Shown here: piece after piece, positions 2,199-43,917 of the stretch
Layout: each line of letters opens with the position of its first letter
How positions within the stretch are numbered: the stretch's first letter is position 1
Source: Sphingobacteriales bacterium 44-15
Lineage (GTDB): Bacteria > Bacteroidota > Bacteroidia > Chitinophagales > Chitinophagaceae
Assembly: GCA_001899685.1 (NCBI GenBank)
Contig: MKWG01000006.1
Location: 1 to 64,000 of the forward strand
Direction of reading: 5' to 3'
DNA length: 64,000 nucleotides
Position numbers and translations under genes: made by a program
Notes under the pieces: model-generated
Told to the model about the DNA's origin: nothing
The model's input: only the letters and a program-made list of their open reading frames with translations
Databases searched by the model: none

Positions 2199-3866
2199 TC
2201 AAAAGTTTACGGGATTGGCGCGTCCTTTATTTGTATCCCACCATACAGGCGTTCCTCCTTTATCTGGTCCGCCGAGTAAAGACACTCCTCCGGCAACCCC
2301 TGTAGGGTTATTTGTATATTCAGTTGATGGATATTCAATTCTGCGAATCTGTAAATCAGTACTAATAGTACCTCCGCTGTTATTCACAACAACGGGGAAA
2401 AGTCTCGGATAACCGGTACGTCTGTATTCAGCCCATGCTTCATACCCGCCTGAAGGCCACATGGCAATCCATTTCTGAGTAATAATGCGTTCTAAATTCT
2501 GTTCTTTAGTTGCTGCAGGATCCCATTTAATTGTGATAGTTGAAACTGCACTAATACTGGCATTTGGAACTCCTGCTGTAGGAGTAAGAGGATCTACATA
2601 ATCTGCCTGTGTACTGGTGTTATCGTTAAGATAATTGCCGGCAGATACTCCCCATTGAGCCATAGAAGTATTTATTCCTGTTTCATAGTCATCTTGAGCG
2701 TTTCCGGTAGTCCAGCCCCTTAACGCAGCCTCGGCTTTTAGGAACCAAACTTCGGCTGCATTCATCGTAACTATCGGAGAATATTGTTGTATTATATCAA
2801 AGTTTGGAAAAGAATAGCCATTATACATGGGTTTAGCACCAACAGGTGTACCTGCCCTAATTCCAAGATACTTACCTTCATAACCGGGAGGAGCAGGCGC
2901 CATTTTCCCGGCGGGATAACAATACTTTGACAGGCGTGGATCATTATATCCGGTTAAATAGGTTATTAAAGAAGCATTGCAGGCCAAATCTACCCATACC
3001 GTACCAACATACCAGATAGGGTTCTGGTATCCAAAACCTGAGATTCCTGCGTTGTCTGTATTAGTCTCAATCAAGCCCGCCGGATTATTTAAGGCCAAAA
3101 GTGCCTGTGTTTTTGCAGTGTTTGGGTCTATATTAACAATGCGCATTGCTAATCTTAATCTCAGGGAATTGGCATATTTTAACCATTGGGTATAATTTCC
3201 GGCATAGATCATATCGTATTTTGCAAATGGCTTACTCCCTGGAAATGTAGCAATATATGCCTCAAGATTAGATACGGCAGTGTCTAATTGTTTAAAAAAC
3301 AAATCATAAACATCTTTTTGCGCGTCATACGGTGTTGCATTATCTAGCCCAACCTTACTGTATGGAATAGGTCCATAATAATCTGTAACTCTGCTCATCG
3401 CTTGTACTTGTAAAATGAGAGCAATAGCCCAGTAGTCAGGAGCTTCAGTGCGTGTTCCCTCGGATTCAATTTTTCTTACAGGTCCCATCACGTCTCCATA
3501 AGCCACAGCGTATATATAATCATTCCAACCACTTACGAGAAAGTAATTTTGGTTATTTATGTTCCCCCTAAACGGATCGGCCGACTGATAGTATCCGCAA
3601 TAGTTATCTGCGTTCAAATTCTGAATAAGTTGATACATTCCGTAATTACTAAAAATATTTTGCTGAATTCCAGGATAGTACAGCCCGATATTATTAAAAT
3701 CAATTTTTAGCTGATCTTTTGTTATACCGGTTGGGTCTGTATTAAAAGATTCAAACTTCTTGGTGCAACCAAACAAAAGCGTGATTGTTACAATAAAAAA
3801 GGTGGACTTAAAAGAAGTATTAACCCTCTCTAATCTATTTGAGGTAAATGTTGTTTTTTTCATCAC
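2199..3866 (-). CDS. SusD/RagB-like outer-membrane lipoprotein (locus 1)
   Basis: Protein of 555 residues with a lipoprotein signal (hydrophobic stretch 22-33, lipobox ending at Cys34). It belongs to the SusD-like group seen beside TonB receptors of the RagA type: an N-terminal helical TPR-like part (for example residues 90-260), a long loop-rich middle, and the C-terminal KWIAMWPSGGYEAWAEYRRTG stretch typical of the SusD-like_2 group. It would sit on the cell surface as a lid over the SusC barrel and bind the ligand. It starts 24 bp after the stop of the upstream susC, so the two are co-transcribed. Tandem ATGs occur at 3866 and 3863; either could be used. The substrate cannot be told from sequence. 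Confidence 0.9.
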   Translation of the reverse strand: MMKKTTFTSNRLERVNTSFKSTFFIVTITLLFGCTKKFESFNTDPTGITKDQLKIDFNNIGLYYPGIQQNIFSNYGMYQLIQNLNADNYCGYYQSADPFRGNINNQNYFLVSGWNDYIYAVAYGDVMGPVRKIESEGTRTEAPDYWAIALILQVQAMSRVTDYYGPIPYSKVGLDNATPYDAQKDVYDLFFKQLDTAVSNLEAYIATFPGSKPFAKYDMIYAGNYTQWLKYANSLRLRLAMRIVNIDPNTAKTQALLALNNPAGLIETNTDNAGISGFGYQNPIWYVGTVWVDLACNASLITYLTGYNDPRLSKYCYPAGKMAPAPPGYEGKYLGIRAGTPVGAKPMYNGYSFPNFDIIQQYSPIVTMNAAEVWFLKAEAALRGWTTGNAQDDYETGINTSMAQWGVSAGNYLNDNTSTQADYVDPLTPTAGVPNASISAVSTITIKWDPAATKEQNLERIITQKWIAMWPSGGYEAWAEYRRTGYPRLFPVVVNNSGGTISTDLQIRRIEYPSTEYTNNPTGVAGGVSLLGGPDKGGTPVWWDTNKGRANPVNF

Positions 3867-3890: not shown

Positions 3891-6800
3891 TTAAAATGAA
3901 ATATTAAGCTGAGCGCCTATATTACGAGTTGTAGGCTGGCTGAAAACATCCACGCCAGACATTCCGTTACCTGTTGACATTGTAATTTCAGGATCGTAAG
4001 GTGCCTTTTTTGAAAGGTATAAAAGGTTGCTTCCTATCAACGATAACCTTATGCTCTTAATAAGATTATTCATAATCGGGAAATTATATCCTAGTGTTGC
4101 CTGTCGTATCCTGACTGCCGTTGCACTGTACATATATACTTCACCTATTCCTGATCTGCCTCCGACGGTTGAATACCATTTTAAAGCATCTATAGTGGAC
4201 ACGGTGTTACCATTAGGGTCTACAGCGTTCACCTTCACGCCTCCATTATCGCGTGCATCGCCACTCACTTTGGATGTGCCATAGCTATCCATTAGCATTT
4301 GTGTCATTGACATCACATGGCCTCCGAATTTCCCATCAATTAAAAAAGAAAGTGTGATTTTTTTGTAATTAAACGTATTGTTCCAACCCATTTGCCATAT
4401 TGGATTTGGGTTACCTACCTTTACAAACTTATTATTATTAATAGGTTGGCCCCCACTGTTTAGCTCAATTTGACCACTTTCATTTCTTTCAAACTTAACA
4501 CCAATTATATCCCCCCACGATCCCCCTTTTTGCAATGCAGATCCGTAGGCATTGGGATTGGGTGTAGTTAGTAGGATCTGAGCATCAGGCGCATTTGGAT
4601 TAAGCTCAATAATAACATTCTGGTTACTTGAATAATTAAGGGCTGTGTTCCAACTCAGTTGTTCACTTTTTACAAGGTCATAAGCCAGTAAAAGTTCGAT
4701 GCCCTTATTTTGTATATTCCCGGCATTCAGATACCCGACTTTAAATCCTGTTGAAGCTGCCGGAGTATATTGAATAAACTGATTGTAAGTATTGGATTTA
4801 TACCAGGAAAAATTAAAACTAAGCTTGTTGTCAAAAAAACGAAGATCAGCTCCTATTTCTGTAGATTTGGTATTAGTAGGTTTTAACTTGGGATTGGGCT
4901 CTACAAGATTAAAATTAACGCTACCTCCTGCTGCCAGATAACTTAATGGATTTGTAATATACTGAGGAACTGAGGTCGCTACTTCTGCGTAGGAGCCTCT
5001 AACTTTAGCAAAGGAGATAAACGTAGGCAATTTTAAAACCTGGTTCAATATAATGGACAATCCAGTGGATGGATAAAAGTAAGATATGTTAGATGTAAAG
5101 GCTAAATTTGAAGACCAATCATTTCTTCCTGTTATGTTTAGGAATAGCCAATCATTATAAGATAAGTTCAAACTTCCAAAAGCCGATTGAATTTGGCTAT
5201 GTGTCGAAGAATTCGACACATTACTTGTTACAGATGTTGCAACATTTTGTGCGATAAATATATTGGGGATAATAAGCCCTAACCCTTGGTCTATACTAGT
5301 TCCATTAGTGATAACATCCGTATTACTGGCACCTAATAGTCCCTCTAATTTAAATGGAGATTTGAATGGTATTTTGAGAGAGGCAATTACATCACCATAT
5401 TTTTGTGTGCGGGTAAGATCGCTTCGGGTAAATGCACCGTTACGACCTATTACATTAACAGGGTTAGTACCGGAATATAAATCCCTTTCCCATGTGTCTG
5501 AAACTCGGTCAATATTGCCCCGTACCTGCAAATTAAACCAACTGGCGAAATCATATTTCACGCTTGCATTAAGGATCAAACGGTTGCGCGTAGAATAATT
5601 TGGGTTTTTATGAAGTATCCACCAGGGATTTTGCTGAAGATCTTCATTTGCAATCCAGTTTTGAGTAAGAAGCCCATTTCTTTCAGGTTGGGGTATACTA
5701 TATTGATCCTTATATTGAGTGATATCATTACCTACAGGAAATAAATAAAGTCCGGTAAGCGGATTGAAGAACAGCCCCATTGAAGGAGTGTTATCTACCT
5801 TTTGTTGAATGTAATTGGTATTTGCATCAACTGTCAATTTATTATTTAAAAAATGACCGATTTCCCTAAAAGTAAAGTTATTACGCACTAATTTATTGGT
5901 GGGTTCAACGCCGCTTGCCGTAGTGTTGGCATAAGAAAAATAAGTTTGAGCCAGCGCTGACCCTGAAGAAAAGTTAACTGAGTTGCTGATATTTTGTCCA
6001 TGCTGATAAAAAACAGATAAATTATCATTCTCTTCAGGAGTTGTTAATGCTGCCCCCCAGCTTTGATTACCATTGGGCGTTACACCATATTTATTCTGAA
6101 ACTTAGGCTTATAGGAAATTGTATTATTAGTATAAGATGATGAAAAATTAATCTTGGCTGTACCTATCTTACCTTTTTTGGTAGTAATTAATATGACTCC
6201 GTTTGCGGCCTGGCTACCATAGAGTGCAGAACCTGATGCTCCCTGCAATACACTGATGCTTTCAATATCATCCGGGTTTAAATTTGATATGCCATCACCA
6301 CCATCTGGCCCTCCTGCAAAAGTACTGTTGGGCTGTCCATTTGCATTAGAGGAATTAGAAATTGGCACACCATCTATTACATACAAAGGTTGATTAGTTC
6401 CGAAAGCATTTTTGCTGCCTCTCAAAATTACCTTTGCTGATCCGCCAACACCTGATGCACTCGGAGAAATAGTCACTCCTGCTACCTTTCCATTTAAGGA
6501 ATTCATCAGGTTGTCGTTTTTAATATCCGTAAGCTCACTTCCTTTTACTATTTGATTTGCATATACAAGTGATTTTGCAGATCTTTGAACACCCAAAGCG
6601 GTTACCACTACATCACTCAGTCCCGCGACTTCCAACTCCAAAACGACATTTACCTCTGTTTGTTTCCCTACTTTCACTCTTTTGGTTTGATATCCTACGC
6701 TTGAAAATTCAAGTATGATATCCTTATTGTCGGGTGTTGTTAAAGTGAACTGTCCCTCATTATTCGTTGTTGTTCCTGATTGCGACCCTATGACGATCAC

Positions 6801-7283
6801 GGATACATTTTGTAAAGGTTCTCCTTGAGCATTGGTCACTTTTCCTTTTATAATGTTGGCAATAATATCCGTGACCTGTTTACTGTCAAGCGCTTTTTCT
6901 TCGGGCACCGCTCTCCTGTACAGCATAATGGTCTTATCCTCGATATTATATGCCAGCGGCTGGTTTTTCAGCATAATATCCAGGAAACTCCGGAGCGGCA
7001 TATCGTATACAGAAAGCGTAACGGGACTTGTTCCGTTGAGATCGGAATGGTTGTAGAAAACAACATACCCGGTTTGTTTTTTAATAGCAGTAAAGACTTT
7101 TGTTAATTCAACATTTTTGCCTGACAAGGTAATCGTTTGAGAAACGCCGTTGGCGTAAACATTCAGACAAGCAGCAGTTAAGAAGAGGAAAGTTAGTTTC
7201 ATCACTAACAGGGTTTTGGTAAGGCTACTGCTTCTCCACCACGGAATACAGTAACCGTAAACAATTTTTTGCATAAATTGCAT
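3891..7283 (-). CDS. SusC/RagA-family TonB-dependent receptor with STN signalling domain (locus 1)
   Basis: Protein of 1130 residues. In order: signal peptide (about 27-46), STN (secretin/TonB short N-terminal) domain (about 58-125), carboxypeptidase-regulatory-like beta-sandwich (about 145-220, with GKVTNAQGEPLQNVSV), TonB plug with the SusC signature DVVVTALG followed by GVITPS-like and LYVIDGVPI motifs, then a 22-strand barrel to the C-terminal NISF. The STN domain marks it as a transducing receptor that talks to the FecR anti-sigma factor encoded 290 bp upstream. The barrel-coding part (3891-6800) is visibly more A+T-rich than the signal/STN part and the fecR gene. An opposite-strand terminator hairpin lies about 100 bp upstream of the start. 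Confidence 0.95.
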   Translation of the reverse strand: MQFMQKIVYGYCIPWWRSSSLTKTLLVMKLTFLFLTAACLNVYANGVSQTITLSGKNVELTKVFTAIKKQTGYVVFYNHSDLNGTSPVTLSVYDMPLRSFLDIMLKNQPLAYNIEDKTIMLYRRAVPEEKALDSKQVTDIIANIIKGKVTNAQGEPLQNVSVIVIGSQSGTTTNNEGQFTLTTPDNKDIILEFSSVGYQTKRVKVGKQTEVNVVLELEVAGLSDVVVTALGVQRSAKSLVYANQIVKGSELTDIKNDNLMNSLNGKVAGVTISPSASGVGGSAKVILRGSKNAFGTNQPLYVIDGVPISNSSNANGQPNSTFAGGPDGGDGISNLNPDDIESISVLQGASGSALYGSQAANGVILITTKKGKIGTAKINFSSSYTNNTISYKPKFQNKYGVTPNGNQSWGAALTTPEENDNLSVFYQHGQNISNSVNFSSGSALAQTYFSYANTTASGVEPTNKLVRNNFTFREIGHFLNNKLTVDANTNYIQQKVDNTPSMGLFFNPLTGLYLFPVGNDITQYKDQYSIPQPERNGLLTQNWIANEDLQQNPWWILHKNPNYSTRNRLILNASVKYDFASWFNLQVRGNIDRVSDTWERDLYSGTNPVNVIGRNGAFTRSDLTRTQKYGDVIASLKIPFKSPFKLEGLLGASNTDVITNGTSIDQGLGLIIPNIFIAQNVATSVTSNVSNSSTHSQIQSAFGSLNLSYNDWLFLNITGRNDWSSNLAFTSNISYFYPSTGLSIILNQVLKLPTFISFAKVRGSYAEVATSVPQYITNPLSYLAAGGSVNFNLVEPNPKLKPTNTKSTEIGADLRFFDNKLSFNFSWYKSNTYNQFIQYTPAASTGFKVGYLNAGNIQNKGIELLLAYDLVKSEQLSWNTALNYSSNQNVIIELNPNAPDAQILLTTPNPNAYGSALQKGGSWGDIIGVKFERNESGQIELNSGGQPINNNKFVKVGNPNPIWQMGWNNTFNYKKITLSFLIDGKFGGHVMSMTQMLMDSYGTSKVSGDARDNGGVKVNAVDPNGNTVSTIDALKWYSTVGGRSGIGEVYMYSATAVRIRQATLGYNFPIMNNLIKSIRLSLIGSNLLYLSKKAPYDPEITMSTGNGMSGVDVFSQPTTRNIGAQLNISF

Positions 7284-7353
7284 TTGTATTAGTTGTAAAA
7301 GAATTCGTTTGAACGACGGTTTTTAGACCAACTAAATGCGCCGTGAGGCGTTG

Positions 7354-7384
7354 CCGGAAGTGCTTCGAACCACTTCCGGTTTTT
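7354..7384 (+). terminator. Opposite-strand intrinsic terminator upstream of susC (locus 1)
   Basis: A perfect 9-bp stem (7354-7362 with 7371-7379, 8-nt loop) is followed on the plus strand by TTTTT at 7380-7384. Both flanking genes, fecR and susC, are on the minus strand, where the hairpin is preceded by A's and not followed by U's. So it works as a terminator only for transcripts running against susC. The same arrangement is found in loci 2 and 3. Confidence 0.7.
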
Positions 7385-7456
7385 ATTGGTACTATGATAA
7401 TTTTTTAGTGTCTGTGCATGTTTGATTTGTTTTAATTATTAAATGATGTTTGGGCT

Positions 7457-7546
7457 ATGAGCTTTGAGCTATCGGCTATCAGTCACAGCTTCTATATAAT
7501 TGCAGTAAGCAGCGGTCAGTATCTTTGCGATCAGCTCAAAGCTCAT
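7457..7546. repeat. Spaced inverted repeat in the fecR-susC gap
   Basis: Two perfect 14-bp arms, ATGAGCTTTGAGCT at 7457-7470 and its complement at 7533-7546, are separated by 62 bp. The words just inside the arms (CTATC and GATC) extend the match loosely. It lies in the 290-bp gap between fecR and susC, just after the fecR stop. The wording is low in complexity and looks like a dispersed intergenic repeat rather than an operator. Confidence 0.6.
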
Positions 7547-7573
7547 TGCTGAAAGCCCGCGGCCAACAACCCC

Positions 7574-8878: not shown

Positions 8879-9457
8879 TTAGAGATCGTAAAACCGGAGC
8901 AGCAATGCAATAATCACAGCTCCATAATCAGCGTCTTTTAAAAACAGGCGCAGGAAATTTAAAGCCGCTGTCATATGAAACTTTACTGTTCTTTTGCTGA
9001 TATTCATTTTGGCAGCTATTTCTTCCTGGCTAAGCCGGGAATTCCTGCTCAGGTTAAAAACCATGCGTTGCTGCGGAGGCATCCTGGACACTGCGGCAGC
9101 AATATGTTTTTCCAGCTCTTTAGCTTCCAGTGTATTGTCAGGACGGATGATTTCATGCAGCATATCTTCATCCTGCAGACTCACCCGCTCCATCACCCGC
9201 TTACGGATCGCTGAAACCAGGTAATTGCGGCTGATAATAAAAAGGTAAGCCGGAAAATCTTTTACTTCAGGCAGCCGTTCCCGTTGTATCCATATTTTGA
9301 TGAAAATATCCTGCACAATTTCTACCGCCTCATCGTACATTTTGACATAAGTGAGCACATGAGAAAACACCTTCCCCCTGTATTGATCAAGCAATAATGC
9401 GAACGCCTGTTCATCTCCTGCCGCGATCTTTTCCAGGAGTACGGGGTCGGTATGCAT
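8879..9457 (-). CDS. ECF RNA polymerase sigma factor (locus 1)
   Basis: ECF sigma-70 factor of 192 residues with region 2 (VQDIFIKIWIQRERLP) and region 4 with its helix-turn-helix (LSQEEIAAKMNISKRTVKFH). I chose the ATG at 9457 because GGAGAG lies at 9470-9465, about 7 bases upstream, on the minus strand. A TTG start at 9472 is also in frame and would add five residues. It is the first gene of locus 1 and is followed by its FecR partner. It probably directs transcription of the susC/susD genes of this locus. It ends in a hydrophobic tail (IIALLLRFYDL). Confidence 0.92.
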   Translation of the reverse strand: MHTDPVLLEKIAAGDEQAFALLLDQYRGKVFSHVLTYVKMYDEAVEIVQDIFIKIWIQRERLPEVKDFPAYLFIISRNYLVSAIRKRVMERVSLQDEDMLHEIIRPDNTLEAKELEKHIAAAVSRMPPQQRMVFNLSRNSRLSQEEIAAKMNISKRTVKFHMTAALNFLRLFLKDADYGAVIIALLLRFYDL

Positions 9458-9488
9458 TTTTTTTCTCTCCAAGCAAAATTGATATTGA

Positions 9489-31100: not shown

Positions 31101-31676
31101 AGAAAAAACCAGTTCCACATTGGCTGAGGGTACAGAGAATTGAAACCGCCCATCAGCATTAGTAGTGGTACCCGCCTGAGTGCCTTTAACTGTTACGCTC
31201 ACTCCTTCCAGTGGTTCTTTCTTTGCGTTGGTCACCCTGCCGCTCAGGCTGATGTCTGCCGGAGGGAAAAGCGCACCAGGCAAGGGTTGTAAAGCGGGGG
31301 GAGGGAATCTTTCGTTTTTCTGCTTAATGAAAATGGTGCTTTCCTCAATTGTAAATTCAAGCTGCTGGTCCTTCAGCGCCTGGTTCAGAAATAGCTCCAG
31401 GGGCATATTCTCCCCATGAATAGTTACCGGCTTTGCTTTCCTGACCTGGCTGGCCTTGTAACTAACAAAATAGCCGGTTTGCTGTTTGATGGTCGAAAAT
31501 ACTTTCTCCAGCGGGACTTCCGTTCCCGAAAAAGTGATGGTTTGGGACAAACCTGTAGCGGTTGTTTGCAAGCAAAGTCCTAATAGCAGAACAGTCGTAA
31601 GTTGCATCACTCGCAAAGTTTTGGGTAAAATTCCGCGAATAGCAGAGCATTCGCGGCTAAAAGCATTTAATTGCAT
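28182..31676 (-). CDS. SusC/RagA-family TonB-dependent receptor with STN domain (locus 2)
   Basis: Protein of 1164 residues: signal peptide (about 24-42), STN domain (about 52-118), carboxypeptidase-regulatory-like domain (about 143-225, GRVTNAKKEPLEGVSV), SusC signature DVVVVGYGTQKR, plug with SPLILVDGVEADI and barrel to the C-terminus. It would import fructan oligosaccharides across the outer membrane using TonB energy, and the STN domain would report binding to the FecR protein encoded upstream. It shares the order sigma-fecR-susC-susD with loci 1 and 3, but its susD partner is of a different subgroup. An opposite-strand terminator lies 80-113 bp upstream of the start. Confidence 0.95.
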   Translation of the reverse strand: MQLNAFSRECSAIRGILPKTLRVMQLTTVLLLGLCLQTTATGLSQTITFSGTEVPLEKVFSTIKQQTGYFVSYKASQVRKAKPVTIHGENMPLELFLNQALKDQQLEFTIEESTIFIKQKNERFPPPALQPLPGALFPPADISLSGRVTNAKKEPLEGVSVTVKGTQAGTTTNADGRFQFSVPSANVELVFSFVGYATQTVKAKSQIVFNIVLEEEVSRLSDVVVVGYGTQKRINLTGAVDQISGDKLTDRPIVKVSQALQGLMANVNVVTTTEGGKPGTNLSINVRGYTGLGATGSPLILVDGVEADINAINPNDIESISVLKDAASSAIYGSRAPYGVILVTTKMGKKGDGIKLSYNSNFSYSQTIHRPISASSLDFATVINEAANNAGRANLFSDVQIEKIKAHLADPSAPSTEVDPGAGRGYLWLGYFGSYANTDWYDVFTKNWTSNQLHNIGISGGSDKTTYYIGLGYAGAGAINNFFDDSYDQYNFRANINSQVTPWLKFGIRTSYSKDSVRSPTNSRGNWSGLYQKMVTSPVTVPTGGYWRDGVTFIQDGGATLASNQKAWIMGDVTLTPLPGLEIRGSYNYNYNTWTNVAAANDIFYQTTDGSYRSYNIVPSISKSNEVSSFVNYNFYTSYEKKLSGHYFKIMAGYQQEHKNYQRLNAGNNYTYSPTLPSLTLTYGTNYSANDALYEWATSGIFTRFNYNYKEKYLLEFNGRYDGTSLFPSNRRWQFFPSVSAGYNIAKEQYWNSLRSTFSTVKLRASYGMLGDISSLINSGSYYLSQPSLSTTAPANTNWLFGGAQQPAVNAGSLVSSAVTWAKPSMLDFGIDVGALNEKLQLSFDWYHRKVRDLYGPVQQYPGILGVSPPQINNASVETKGFDMTVSWSDRIGALSYSARFVLSNYKGKVLSYPNPAGSTGTWYNGQAMGAIWGYETAGLFQSDDEIGHAPSQTAIWGTWHPGDVRYKDLNGDNKIDYGNNTLSNPGDQKVIGNGTPQYSYGFTLSLGYKGFDFQAFLQGVGKRDYAPGWSTFFWGIPGSGSEWASQVLVTNLNRYTAETPNGYFPRYYLSGENSKNQQTQSRYLLNAAYLRLKNLQLGYTVPAHITRRAHIGRLRVYGSAENLFTIAPGLNKKFQIDPELLISDGNIYPISRAFAIGVNLDIQ

Positions 31677-31683
31677 ACTTTTG
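31676..31683 (+). promoter_or_regulatory. Candidate antisense -7 element at the susC start (locus 2)
   Basis: The plus strand reads TACTTTTG here, a full match to TAnnTTTG, on the strand opposite susC and about 70 bp before the plus-strand terminator at 31756-31789. A transcript from here would be about 100 nt long and complementary to the susC leader. No good -33 TTG lies at the right distance, so the element rests on the -7 match and on the terminator. Confidence 0.3.
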
Positions 31684-31755
31684 TAGCCGTTTTTGGGTTA
31701 ATGAATAAATTGTCTGTTGAACTGGTATTTTTATTGGGTTAGCCTGAAAATTTTG

Positions 31756-31789
31756 CCGGATGCTGTTGCGAGCAGCGTCCGGTTTTTTT
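31756..31789 (+). terminator. Opposite-strand intrinsic terminator upstream of susC (locus 2)
   Basis: A 10-bp stem (31756-31765 with 31773-31782; one G-U pair) with a 7-nt loop is followed on the plus strand by seven T's (31783-31789). The flanking fecR and susC genes are on the minus strand, so this terminator faces against them, as at loci 1 and 3. Confidence 0.75.
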
Positions 31790-31794
31790 ATGTA

Positions 31795-40184: not shown

Positions 40185-43100
40185 TTAGAAATCCACATTG
40201 AGTTTAAAACCAAAAGAAGCTGTCCAGGGCATCATGTTATAGTATTCCACACCCTGCGCCCACACATTATTTGTCTGGAAAAATGCCCGCTCCGGATCAA
40301 TAGCGATGTGTGCCGCATTCCATTCAAAAACATTGCTGGCAACAAACGACAGTGAAGCACCCTGCAGTTTCAGATTTTTTGTAAACGATGAAGGAAGCCT
40401 GTAAGTCAGCGCCACTTCACGAAGCTTAACATAGGTAGCGCTATAGGTATTCCTGTCAGGGAAGGGACGATTGGCATATCTGTATGCAGTAAAAGGATCA
40501 AGCCATTTGGTATCGGCGCCACCAAGATTTTCCACATAGGTAACTACGCCATTCACCGTTTGTTGGTAAACACCCGGGTTAAAGCTGGCATCCTGTTCGC
40601 GGATATCTGCCTGGGCGCCGGTCCAAGGTAAACCATTATACTCTGCATTTCTGCCACCTACCCAGTTGCCAAGAAATGCCTGCGGATTTGCCTTGATCTG
40701 TTCCGGCAGGCTTTTGCTTTTATCGTAAGGCACTCCCGTAAGGGTTTCTTCCAACTGCCCGTTATTACCAAGGAACATCATACTGTTGGAATAAAATGAA
40801 CCACCCTGTCTCCAGTCAATATTAGCATATAATGTGAATGCCTTATAAGTAATAGAAGGCTGGATACCGAGCATGAAATCATGATTGAAGTTGCCGATCT
40901 TCACCATATTGTTCACATCATTATCAGTCTGGTACCTGCCTGAATTATCTACAATCGGGTAACCATAATAAGGAGAGGACTGATCTTTTACAACCAGCAT
41001 GGGCAGCATATAAATATCACCGATCTGTCCTCCTTCATAGGTACGTACTTCAGCTCCATTGTAGGATATGAACGGGAAGTACTTGATACCTTCAGCCAGC
41101 TTTTTAATGGTGGTGCGGTTGCGTGAGAAATTAAAATTCATCTCCCACTTGAAGTTTTCTGTTACTACCGGTACAGTGGTAAGACGTATATCCCAGCCGC
41201 GGCCTTCAATAAGTCCGGCATTGATCAGCTTGCTGCTGGCGCCGGATTCAATAGGAAGTCCGATAGACAGCACCTGGTTTTTATTTTGGGTGATATAGTA
41301 CGTCGCATCAAGGCCGATCCTGTTTTTAAGGAACTGGATCTCCACACCTGCTTCGTGAGAAGTGGATATTTCAGGTTTGAGGTTTGCATTTTTCAGCAAA
41401 CCGGCCATATACATTCTCTTGGCGGTTCCCCAGTCTGTTGCTGTAGAGAAAGTTTGAGTAAGACTATAAGGGCTTACATCATTACCCACCTGTGCAGAAC
41501 CCACTCTTAATTTGGTAAACGATATCCAGTCAGGCATCTTCATCATATCCGAAAGGATCATACTCAATGATGCAGAAGGATAAAAATAGGAACGGTTTGA
41601 TTTGGGCAGCGTGCTCGACCAGTCATTGCGTGCAGTAACGTCAAGATATACCATATTTTTATAACCTACGGAAGCCATGCCATAAATACCATAGATCTGT
41701 TTTTCTGACTTATAACTGTTGTAAGTCACCGCTCCGGGAACGCCATTGGAAATAGTGTAAAGCCCCGGCACTACAAGCTGGCTGGCTGCATTATCTATTT
41801 CACGGCTGTTTTGTTCCAGCCTGGTGGCGCCTGCATAAGCATTCAGGCTCCAGTTCTCAAAAAAACTTTTTTTGTAAGTCAGCATCACATCCATATTGGT
41901 CTCACGCCTGTAAATATTATCAATCTCATATGCTCCTTTGGGCTGCTCATAATTATTATAGCCTTTTTTTGCGTCCCTCGCTTCCTCGTAAGCATCACGT
42001 GTGTAACGCAGCATCAATCCCAACCCCTTTGTTATATCATAGTCGAGCTGGATTTTCCCCACAGTTCTGTCCCTGTTAAATCCGGTGGGGTTTTCATAAG
42101 CTACAAACCAGGGATTATTTTGCTTTTCTTTATATTTTCTCTGCTTGATACCTTCCTGTCCCGGCTCCCAGTATTCGCGCAGATCATTGATATTTACCTG
42201 TGCGCCCATTTCATACAGGCTTCTCACCGGTGAAGTACGGTTGCCATCAATGATTGGTCTGTTATCAGAACCCGATTGGGTAATATTAAAATTGGCAGTT
42301 ACCCTCAGCTTGTCGGATAATTTATAAAGCGTGTTGAATGAAAGCGTCATTCGCCTGAGATCAGTATTGGGAACTATGCCTTTGGTGGTTACATTGCCTG
42401 CAGACAGGCGAAAGCTTCCTTTGTCATAATTACCGCTTACACCAATATTATTAGTATTGGTGATGCCGGTCTGAAAAAAGTCTTTGAACCTGTCGGGGTA
42501 TGACACCAGGGGCACTGCTTCACCATTGCTGTTCCACAATACCCATTTTTCACCCACATCCAGTTGCGCTCCCCAGCTTTCGTTCTCACTTTCTTCCAGT
42601 ACGTGAGCACCTGACTTACCATTTCCAAATTTGTTTTGTACAGGCACATATTTGTAGGGCACATCAAGCGTTACGGCAGTATTCACAGACACGCCCAATC
42701 CTTTTTTGCCTCCACGCCCTGATTTAGTGGTAATGAGCACTACCCCGTTGCCCGCACGGGAACCATATAATGCAGCAGCGCTCGGCCCTTTGAGTATGGA
42801 AATATTGGCAATATCATCAGGATTGATATCAGAGATAGCGTTCCCCATATCAGCGCCGGCAAATCCGTTATTCAACTGGTTGGCAACAGGCACCCCGTCA
42901 ATTACAAATAAAGGCTGGTTATCATTGTTAAGGGAAGTAGCTCCCCTGATAAGCACTTTTACGGAAGACCCTGCAGTACCGTCCATCTGCGATATTTGCA
43001 CACCGGCTACCTTTCCTGACATAGCATTGAGCACACTTGTCTGAGGTGTTTCGGTAAGCTCATCTCCGTCAATATTACCCACCGAATATCCCAGTGATCT

Positions 43101-43835
43101 TTTCTCTCTTTTGATGCCCATTGCCGTTACTACCACTGTAGAAAGATCCTGGGCTTCCGGCTCCATTACAATATTTAACCTGTTACGACCGGAAACGGCT
43201 ATTTCCTGTGTTTTATATCCTACAATGCTGAATATAATGGTGGCATTCGCATCAGCAACGCTGAGCGAAAAAGTACCATCGTTTTTCGTGACCGTTCCAT
43301 TATTGGTATTCTTTTCCACTACGCTCACATTAGGAACCGGTGCGCCGTTTTTGTCTGTTACTTTTCCCGCAACGGTAAGTTTCATTTTCTCAGCAGGATC
43401 AGGTGATTGCCCGGACTGTAATGCAGCAGCCTTTTCATGATGATCCAGGGAAACGATGATCGTATTGCTCTTTACATGGTAAACCAGATCAGTACCGGAT
43501 AACAGCATGTCAAGCGTTTGAGCAAGTGAGCGCACCCGCCTGGGAAAATCCAGTGCTCTGGCTGAAGCGATCTGCGATTCTACATAAGCAAACTTAAAGC
43601 TCGTCTGTCGCTCAATCTGCCTGAAAGCATTCTTAAGCGTACCGCTGCTGAGTCCTACTGACACATTGATCTCATTGAGATCCTGGGCATTACCACTACG
43701 GGCTACCAGCAGTTGTGTGCTCAACATCATTGAAAAAATCACCAGGCAGCTTAATCTCATAAACAAAGCCCATTTTCGTAAAACAATCGTAATACGGGGG
43801 ATGCCAAAACACTCCCCCAAGGCAGGAATTTTCAT
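40185..43835 (-). CDS. SusC/RagA-family TonB-dependent receptor with STN domain (locus 3)
   Basis: Protein of 1216 residues from the ATG at 43835 (MKIPALGECFG). A longer frame to a TTG at 43910 would run through a terminator hairpin and is unlikely. Signal peptide (about 25-47), STN domain (about 58-120: LKNAFRQIERQTSFKFAYVE), carboxypeptidase-regulatory-like domain (GKVTDKNGAPVPNVSV), SusC signature TVVVTAMGIKREKRSLG, plug with PLFVIDGVPVANQ, and barrel to FKLNVDF. It would transduce to the FecR of locus 3. Cargo unknown; it may be a glycan fragment or peptide, since no catabolic gene is linked. Confidence 0.93.
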   Translation of the reverse strand: MKIPALGECFGIPRITIVLRKWALFMRLSCLVIFSMMLSTQLLVARSGNAQDLNEINVSVGLSSGTLKNAFRQIERQTSFKFAYVESQIASARALDFPRRVRSLAQTLDMLLSGTDLVYHVKSNTIIVSLDHHEKAAALQSGQSPDPAEKMKLTVAGKVTDKNGAPVPNVSVVEKNTNNGTVTKNDGTFSLSVADANATIIFSIVGYKTQEIAVSGRNRLNIVMEPEAQDLSTVVVTAMGIKREKRSLGYSVGNIDGDELTETPQTSVLNAMSGKVAGVQISQMDGTAGSSVKVLIRGATSLNNDNQPLFVIDGVPVANQLNNGFAGADMGNAISDINPDDIANISILKGPSAAALYGSRAGNGVVLITTKSGRGGKKGLGVSVNTAVTLDVPYKYVPVQNKFGNGKSGAHVLEESENESWGAQLDVGEKWVLWNSNGEAVPLVSYPDRFKDFFQTGITNTNNIGVSGNYDKGSFRLSAGNVTTKGIVPNTDLRRMTLSFNTLYKLSDKLRVTANFNITQSGSDNRPIIDGNRTSPVRSLYEMGAQVNINDLREYWEPGQEGIKQRKYKEKQNNPWFVAYENPTGFNRDRTVGKIQLDYDITKGLGLMLRYTRDAYEEARDAKKGYNNYEQPKGAYEIDNIYRRETNMDVMLTYKKSFFENWSLNAYAGATRLEQNSREIDNAASQLVVPGLYTISNGVPGAVTYNSYKSEKQIYGIYGMASVGYKNMVYLDVTARNDWSSTLPKSNRSYFYPSASLSMILSDMMKMPDWISFTKLRVGSAQVGNDVSPYSLTQTFSTATDWGTAKRMYMAGLLKNANLKPEISTSHEAGVEIQFLKNRIGLDATYYITQNKNQVLSIGLPIESGASSKLINAGLIEGRGWDIRLTTVPVVTENFKWEMNFNFSRNRTTIKKLAEGIKYFPFISYNGAEVRTYEGGQIGDIYMLPMLVVKDQSSPYYGYPIVDNSGRYQTDNDVNNMVKIGNFNHDFMLGIQPSITYKAFTLYANIDWRQGGSFYSNSMMFLGNNGQLEETLTGVPYDKSKSLPEQIKANPQAFLGNWVGGRNAEYNGLPWTGAQADIREQDASFNPGVYQQTVNGVVTYVENLGGADTKWLDPFTAYRYANRPFPDRNTYSATYVKLREVALTYRLPSSFTKNLKLQGASLSFVASNVFEWNAAHIAIDPERAFFQTNNVWAQGVEYYNMMPWTASFGFKLNVDF

Positions 43836-43879
43836 ACCTTTACTTTGGTTTTTAAATGTTACTGAATATTTAAAGCTAT

Positions 43880-43917
43880 GGCTGCCCGGACTTCCACTCC
43901 GGACGGCCAATTTTTTT
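43880..43917 (+). terminator. Opposite-strand intrinsic terminator upstream of susC (locus 3)
   Basis: An 11-position stem (43880-43890 with 43898-43908; one G-U, one mismatch) with a 7-nt loop is followed on the plus strand by AA and seven T's (43911-43917). It lies 45-82 bp upstream of the chosen susC start and 6 bp from the fecR stop. As in loci 1 and 2, it faces against both genes. Confidence 0.68.

Follow-up and report, generated by a model that had tools for sequence, protein, structure and literature searches.

A predicted antisense RNA at a fecR-susC junction of a Chitinophagaceae bacterium, with candidate relatives across Bacteroidota

A hairpin between fecR and susC in Sphingobacteriales bacterium 44-15 very probably marks where a small antisense RNA gene ends; the RNA probably helps to keep susC down. 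The window, which is the whole stretch of 64,000 nucleotides that we analysed, holds three fecR-susC gaps, each with a predicted copy of the RNA; the copy in the third gap is divergent. Comparison with further copies in the same genome and in other genomes identifies the RNA gene, its strand, its predicted fold and its link to fecR and susC. We infer promoter activity, pairing with the leader, repression and a threshold, and we give the account as a whole, in which the antisense RNA would pair with the susC leader, repress susC and set a threshold for its induction, a probability of roughly three in four. In the open-access literature, we found no description of such RNAs at susC outside Bacteroides. 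A covariance model, a promoter box and a two-hairpin fold that are valid in several families amount to a defined RNA family; this replaces scattered candidates and makes the RNA start, the partner of the 5' stem and the threshold role testable. The threshold question concerns many ECF/FecR-controlled receptors of Bacteroidota.

The hairpin and its setting in the window

The features on which the argument rests are as follows (positions are those of the window).

2199-3866, minus strand: susD-like gene
3891-7283, minus strand: susC, encoding a TonB-dependent receptor with STN, CarbopepD_reg_2 and Plug domains; its likely start is at 7274
7272-7281, plus strand: candidate -7 promoter box CATAAATTGC, a deviant CATAnnTTTG that overlaps the susC ATG at 7274
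7288-7384, plus strand: predicted antisense RNA of ~97 nt, its 5' end placed from the box and its 3' end from the T-run
7289-7335, plus strand: P1/P2 domain (predicted fold)
7289-7295 with 7329-7335, plus strand: P1, TTAGTTG paired with CAACTAA (predicted fold)
7300-7303 with 7321-7324 and 7305-7309 with 7315-7319, plus strand: inner pairs of the P1/P2 domain (predicted fold)
7338-7351, plus strand: small extra hairpin of the window copy and its ortholog (fold and ortholog comparison)
7353-7384, plus strand: P3, the terminator hairpin (7353-7362 with 7371-7380) and T-run; stem and loop are identical in the ortholog L321
7574-8794, minus strand: fecR, encoding an anti-sigma factor
8879-9472, minus strand: ECF-type sigma factor gene
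31674-31790, plus strand: second RNA copy, from its box through its T-run, beside the locus 2 susC (R1 model 62.3 bits; genome E 1e-9)
43833-43914, plus strand: third, divergent RNA copy, at the susC of locus 3 (R1 24.1 bits, E 0.0036 in a search of the window)

The perfect nine-bp stem followed by five T's that an earlier, sequence-only reading had described on the plus strand is read directly in the sequence: CCGGAAGTG (7354-7362) pairs with CACTTCCGG (7371-7379) around an 8-nt loop, a G-T pair (7353/7380) extends the stem, and TTTTT (7380-7384) follows directly 3' of it. That reading had also noted that no plus-strand gene is present to use the terminator, and we found no plus-strand ORF over the hairpin in a list restricted to ORFs of at least 100 amino acids. 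Terminator-like sites are as frequent between 3000 and 12000 as expected by chance (8 found, 8.7 expected); two of them reach ten pairs, and the hairpin studied here is the more G-C-rich of the two. A pattern of the exact hairpin, allowing up to three mismatches, matches only the window copy in the whole genome.

The promoter proposed by the sequence-only reading did not hold up. Its elements, TTTG at 7283-7286 and TTCGTTTG at 7304-7311 with a spacing of 17, are present, but they are at chance level, as dinucleotide shuffling of these 100 nt yields an equally good pair in 13.8% of cases, and they are unconserved: in L321 (FecR 70% identical), which serves as the ortholog from the genus because the stretch of another ortholog, L320, lacks susC, TTTG is replaced by CGAT and TTCGTTTG by TTCGTTGA. 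Because the -7 box of the family lies across the start codon of susC, the predicted RNA comes to ~97 nt (7288-7384) and not the ~65 nt first proposed. The hairpin is 71-101 nt from susC, as that reading stated, if susC starts at 7283; the family alignment favours the ATG at 7274.

Several other observations concern the window. To judge by the box, the likely susC starts are the ATGs at 7274 and 43835, while the longest susC frames begin at ATG 7283 (3891-7283) and TTG 43910 (40185-43910). An inverted repeat beginning GGGCTATGAGCTTTGAGCT lies between the RNA and fecR (7449-7558), and one portion of the repeat is matched close to the end of a contig (C2:213-244). Further palindrome-like repeats, possibly REP-like elements, occur in the gaps of loci L032, L034, L040, L052 and L059.

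Copies in the genome and across Bacteroidota

When the gap was compared by BLAST with its own genome, two other fecR-susC gaps were matched, exactly over the hairpin, and the hairpins there are 86-89% identical to that of the window. The genome has 64 matches to FecR_C (PF16344). We took 59 fecR stretches, the other five matches lying in long frames of receptor size that were not fetched separately, and a script that defines the gap as running from the fecR-like gene to the next ORF yielded 46 gaps; the 13 of 59 loci for which it gave none are left out of the counts, and in a few gaps, such as that of L055, the next ORF is not clearly susC. A terminator with an uninterrupted stem follows fecR on the antisense strand in 31 of the 46 gaps and on the sense strand in none, compared to 1.3 antisense (maximum 3) and 0.2 sense terminators in dinucleotide-shuffled gaps. 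As a class, the terminator hairpin is thus far beyond chance. Under a relaxed test that tolerates mismatches, 43 of the 46 gaps pass, and the hairpin is mostly 60-95 nt from the susC start.

The antisense strand carries an exact CATAnnTTTG at the susC start in 29 of the 46 gaps; of 34 ORF starts in the window examined as a control, a single one has it, and that one also belongs to a susC. PMC7366714 gives TAnnTTTG as the -7 consensus for the phylum's main sigma factor. TTG occurs 19-20 nt upstream of the box in 7 of the 29 copies and in 0-2 at any other spacing, so that a -33 element of the putative antisense promoter is weak at best. The terminator is clear and the promoter box is predicted; the box of the window copy is a deviant form (CATAAATTG at 7272-7280), of which CATAAATTGCAT is conserved in L321. 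From box and terminator, the predicted RNAs are 70-109 nt long, with a median of 91 (27 copies). On the sense strand between fecR and the hairpin, a AACCAAAA-like motif followed after ~12 nt by TATGA recurs by eye (L008-L018, L020, L023) and could be the ECF promoter of susC; a motif count for such a sense promoter returned A-rich words only.

We picked 16 copies of similar length, excluding the window copy, aligned them by sequence only (alignment A2) and built a covariance model, R1, from them. R1 has 38 matches in its own genome at E ≤1, including the 16 training copies, and for 36 of the 38 a FecR_C match lies on the other strand no more than 700 nt away. The other two are a match with E 0.79 that is probably chance and a good RNA copy at a susC without fecR (L085, G000:C43:177107-177218). 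The window copy is matched from 7272 to 7387 (36.5 bits, genome E 6e-4). The third copy of the window is weak, being absent from the genome-search matches and found in the window search only.

A search of related genomes found R1 matches in 19 of 40 genomes of the family at E ≤1e-3 (own genome counted), with up to 40 matches per genome. In a sample of the phylum, searched with stricter filters, 19 of 296 genomes were matched at E ≤1e-4, and 13 of these 19 belong to three other families of the class. All 77 loci taken for inspection, the best matches under a cap, adjoin susC, and 75 of them also fecR. Within the genus, a search of 12 genomes with the FecR of the window as query gave 20 loci, 19 with a junction. 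The hairpin and T-run are conserved there, and the refuting condition named by the sequence-only reading, their lack of conservation in related gaps, does not apply: an antisense terminator is found at 16 of the 19 junctions (14 of 17 once the two that belong to the window's genome are excluded), a sense terminator at 3 and a box with TTT at 12, and R1 matches 18 of the 20 loci at E ≤0.03. We also looked at other families independently of the model. FecR_C was found in 10 of 15 genomes, and the resulting 22 junctions include 9 with an antisense terminator, 2 with a sense terminator and 3 with an exact box; three more (L299-L301) look right by eye and fail the terminator test. The antisense layout is widespread but not universal.

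R1 had no match in the whole genomes of Chryseobacterium indologenes and Clostridium beijerinckii. Rfam 15 recognised only two tRNAs in the window at gathering scores, a single chance-like match (E 6.9) in the fecR-susC gap and nothing at E ≤0.5 in 20 copy-bearing loci, including those of B. fragilis.

Fold, strand polarity and covariation

On the antisense strand, the region from box to terminator is more stably folded than its shuffles (mean z -2.73), and on the sense strand it is so to a small degree only (-0.80); of 41 copies, 39 have their lower energy on the antisense strand (Wilcoxon p 3.5e-8; five of the 46 gaps, L014, L026, L028, L030 and L055, were not in this test). The window copy scored z -0.87, which is not significant, its first P1 bases being cut off in the tested region; folded from 7288, it is predicted to form P1, P2, the small extra hairpin and P3. 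P1 of L321 (TTGGTTG/CAACTAA) differs from that of the window by a change to G-U that preserves the pair on the plus strand. A hairpin noted by eye between the first and a later in-frame susC ATG was rejected, since it had no strand bias (mean z -1.29 sense, -0.92 antisense; 42 copies).

Within the genome, the helix positions of A2 hold 62 G-U versus 12 A-C cells, an excess that fits the antisense strand, although the structure was picked on that strand. The proportion of paired cells is 80.6%, compared to 74.9% in shuffles and at most 52.5% in slid versions, but A2 slid by one column equals or exceeds the real alignment in both-sided changes, and two covariation measures fail to beat this control. 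Among 47 loci from other genomes, 86.9% of the cells are paired, both-sided changes are found at 26 of 26 pairs and the covariation score is 0.512, compared to 0.205 for shuffled and at most 0.123 for slid versions; the alignment of these loci was fitted to R1 and is biased towards pairing. By helix, the paired cells in these relatives are 95.1% in the terminator, 83.0% in P1 and 78.0% in P2.

The terminator is thus the most constant part, and it is present in nearly all gaps of the genome under the relaxed test, as might be expected if it merely blocked stray antisense transcription into fecR and the sigma gene and the RNA had no function. We consider such an insulator unlikely, given that P1 and P2 upstream of it also covary, with a both-sided change at every pair, and that the promoter box is at a fixed position. 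With its box over the start codon of susC and an RNA region that spans most of the gap, an antisense promoter could also repress susC in cis by firing across the leader, the RNA itself playing no part. For interference of this kind, a strand-specific covarying fold is unnecessary, and we hold it to be improbable.

The region is within the susC leader, many of its helices are possible on both strands and 3 of the 19 junctions in the genus search have a sense terminator, all of which could point to a structured leader of the susC mRNA, an attenuator or riboswitch. The strand polarity disfavours this reading, which we regard as very unlikely: none of the 46 gaps has a sense terminator, sense folding is weak and G-U rather than A-C is found at paired positions. 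Copies of a dispersed palindromic element that are in fecR-susC gaps by chance might account for the similar hairpins at two other loci and the other palindrome-like repeats in the same gaps, but the stems have compensating changes and 37 of the 38 genome matches are beside fecR or susC, the sole exception being at chance level, which leaves this explanation with hardly any probability.

Proposed mechanism and relation to known antisense RNAs

We propose that a housekeeping-type promoter, with its -7 box over the susC start codon, would drive transcription away from susC and produce an RNA from ~7288 to 7384 whose 5' part folds into the long P1/P2 stem and whose 3' end is P3, ahead of fecR. 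Counted from the ATG at 7274, positions of about -14 to -110 of the susC leader would be complementary to this antisense RNA. Pairing with the leader would most likely hinder translation initiation and lower the expression of susC and susD. Once released from FecR, the ECF sigma factor would raise susC mRNA above the neutralising capacity of the antisense RNA, which may thus act as a threshold setter for susC induction. One can imagine further that many ECF/FecR receptor loci across the class have their own copies of one ancient RNA family, predating the split of the families, with the conserved P1/P2 as a shared platform to which, for instance, an RNA chaperone might bind, and with all copies joined in one receptor-tuning regulon; we offer this extension tentatively and hold it to be less likely than not.

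DonS and other cis-antisense RNAs associated with polysaccharide utilisation loci (PULs) of Bacteroides were reportedly described by Cao et al. in 2016. The sequence-only reading had proposed that the fecR-susC junction holds a DonS-like cis-antisense RNA, here outside Bacteroides. This proposal is supported by the strand-specific folding, by the covariation, by copies conserved in further genomes and by the B. fragilis gaps, which have the same layout. In the B. fragilis genome that we used, the record of strain Q1F2, 14 of 20 distinct junctions have an antisense terminator (three of these weak and distant from the start) and 1 has a sense terminator; 11 have a terminator within 95 nt, 12 an exact box and 10 both. 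The eleven RNAs predicted are 81-108 nt long and fold better on the antisense strand (mean z -2.48) than on the sense strand (-0.93), with two (L275, L278) in which antisense folding is no better than sense. A GTTAATA-like stretch after the box in B. fragilis gaps (for example, L260, L262, L265 and L276) parallels GGTTAAnnAATAA after the box in the window's genome.

The covariance models match reciprocally between the B. fragilis candidates and the family of the window. R1, run on 23 of 30 B. fragilis loci, matched 12 of the 23 at E <0.1, with the next score at 12.7 bits. A second model, R2, built from the eleven B. fragilis copies and holding only the terminator as structure, was run on 42 of the 59 loci of the window's genome and matched 27 at the RNA with modest E values (0.0008-0.9), the window copy itself (L033) not among them. 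R1 comes close to its limit when run on whole Bacteroides genomes, where E is at best 8e-6 for B. salyersiae and 0.002 for B. fragilis. Six of eight Bacteroides and Phocaeicola matches are at fecR-susC gaps; those in B. finegoldii (E 0.19) and Phocaeicola plebeius (E 0.48), the sole weak match in each, have neither fecR nor susC alongside and were discarded.

Published reports give DonS-family RNAs a length of 78-128 nt (PMC7366714), describe repression by DonS of its own PUL in B. fragilis (PMC11697453) and place antisense RNAs at 15 B. fragilis PULs (PMC9723704). For B. thetaiotaomicron, ten PUL antisense RNAs are reported, later 32 (PMC7366714, PMC10994844), with both negative and positive correlations to their own susC (PMC10994844); the positive correlations count against a simple repression rule. 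PUL antisense RNAs are described in Bacteroides as acting by an unknown mechanism (PMC11697453), and PMC9723704 lists antisense RNAs of a Flavobacterium and offers them as a basis for similar work.

Like DonS-type RNAs, the window copy lies between fecR and susC, antisense to the susC 5' region, at a sigma/anti-sigma locus with an ECF sigma factor gene and fecR upstream of susC; it is encoded divergently to the susC homologue and has its terminator ahead of fecR, and its predicted length of ~97 nt falls in the range reported for DonS-type RNAs. Box, spacing and two-hairpin layout are common to the B. fragilis gaps and the window's genome. These B. fragilis candidates were compared collectively, DonS not being singled out, and repression has been demonstrated for DonS alone. 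Unlike DonS, the family of the window is found in other families of the phylum, with several dozen copies in one genome, and it has a longer covarying P1/P2 stem and a sequence of its own. The FopS RNAs of B. thetaiotaomicron (PMC11697453) are likewise a multi-copy sRNA family with housekeeping-type promoters, and they bind close to the start codon and thereby repress SusC-like transporters; the trans-acting FopS-10 blocks translation by binding beside the susC start codon. According to the same paper, FopS RNAs differ in being ~65-70 nt long and trans-acting, with a shared 5' seed and with 9 of 14 intergenic, whereas copies of the family described here each span their own susC leader and every best-match locus adjoins susC.
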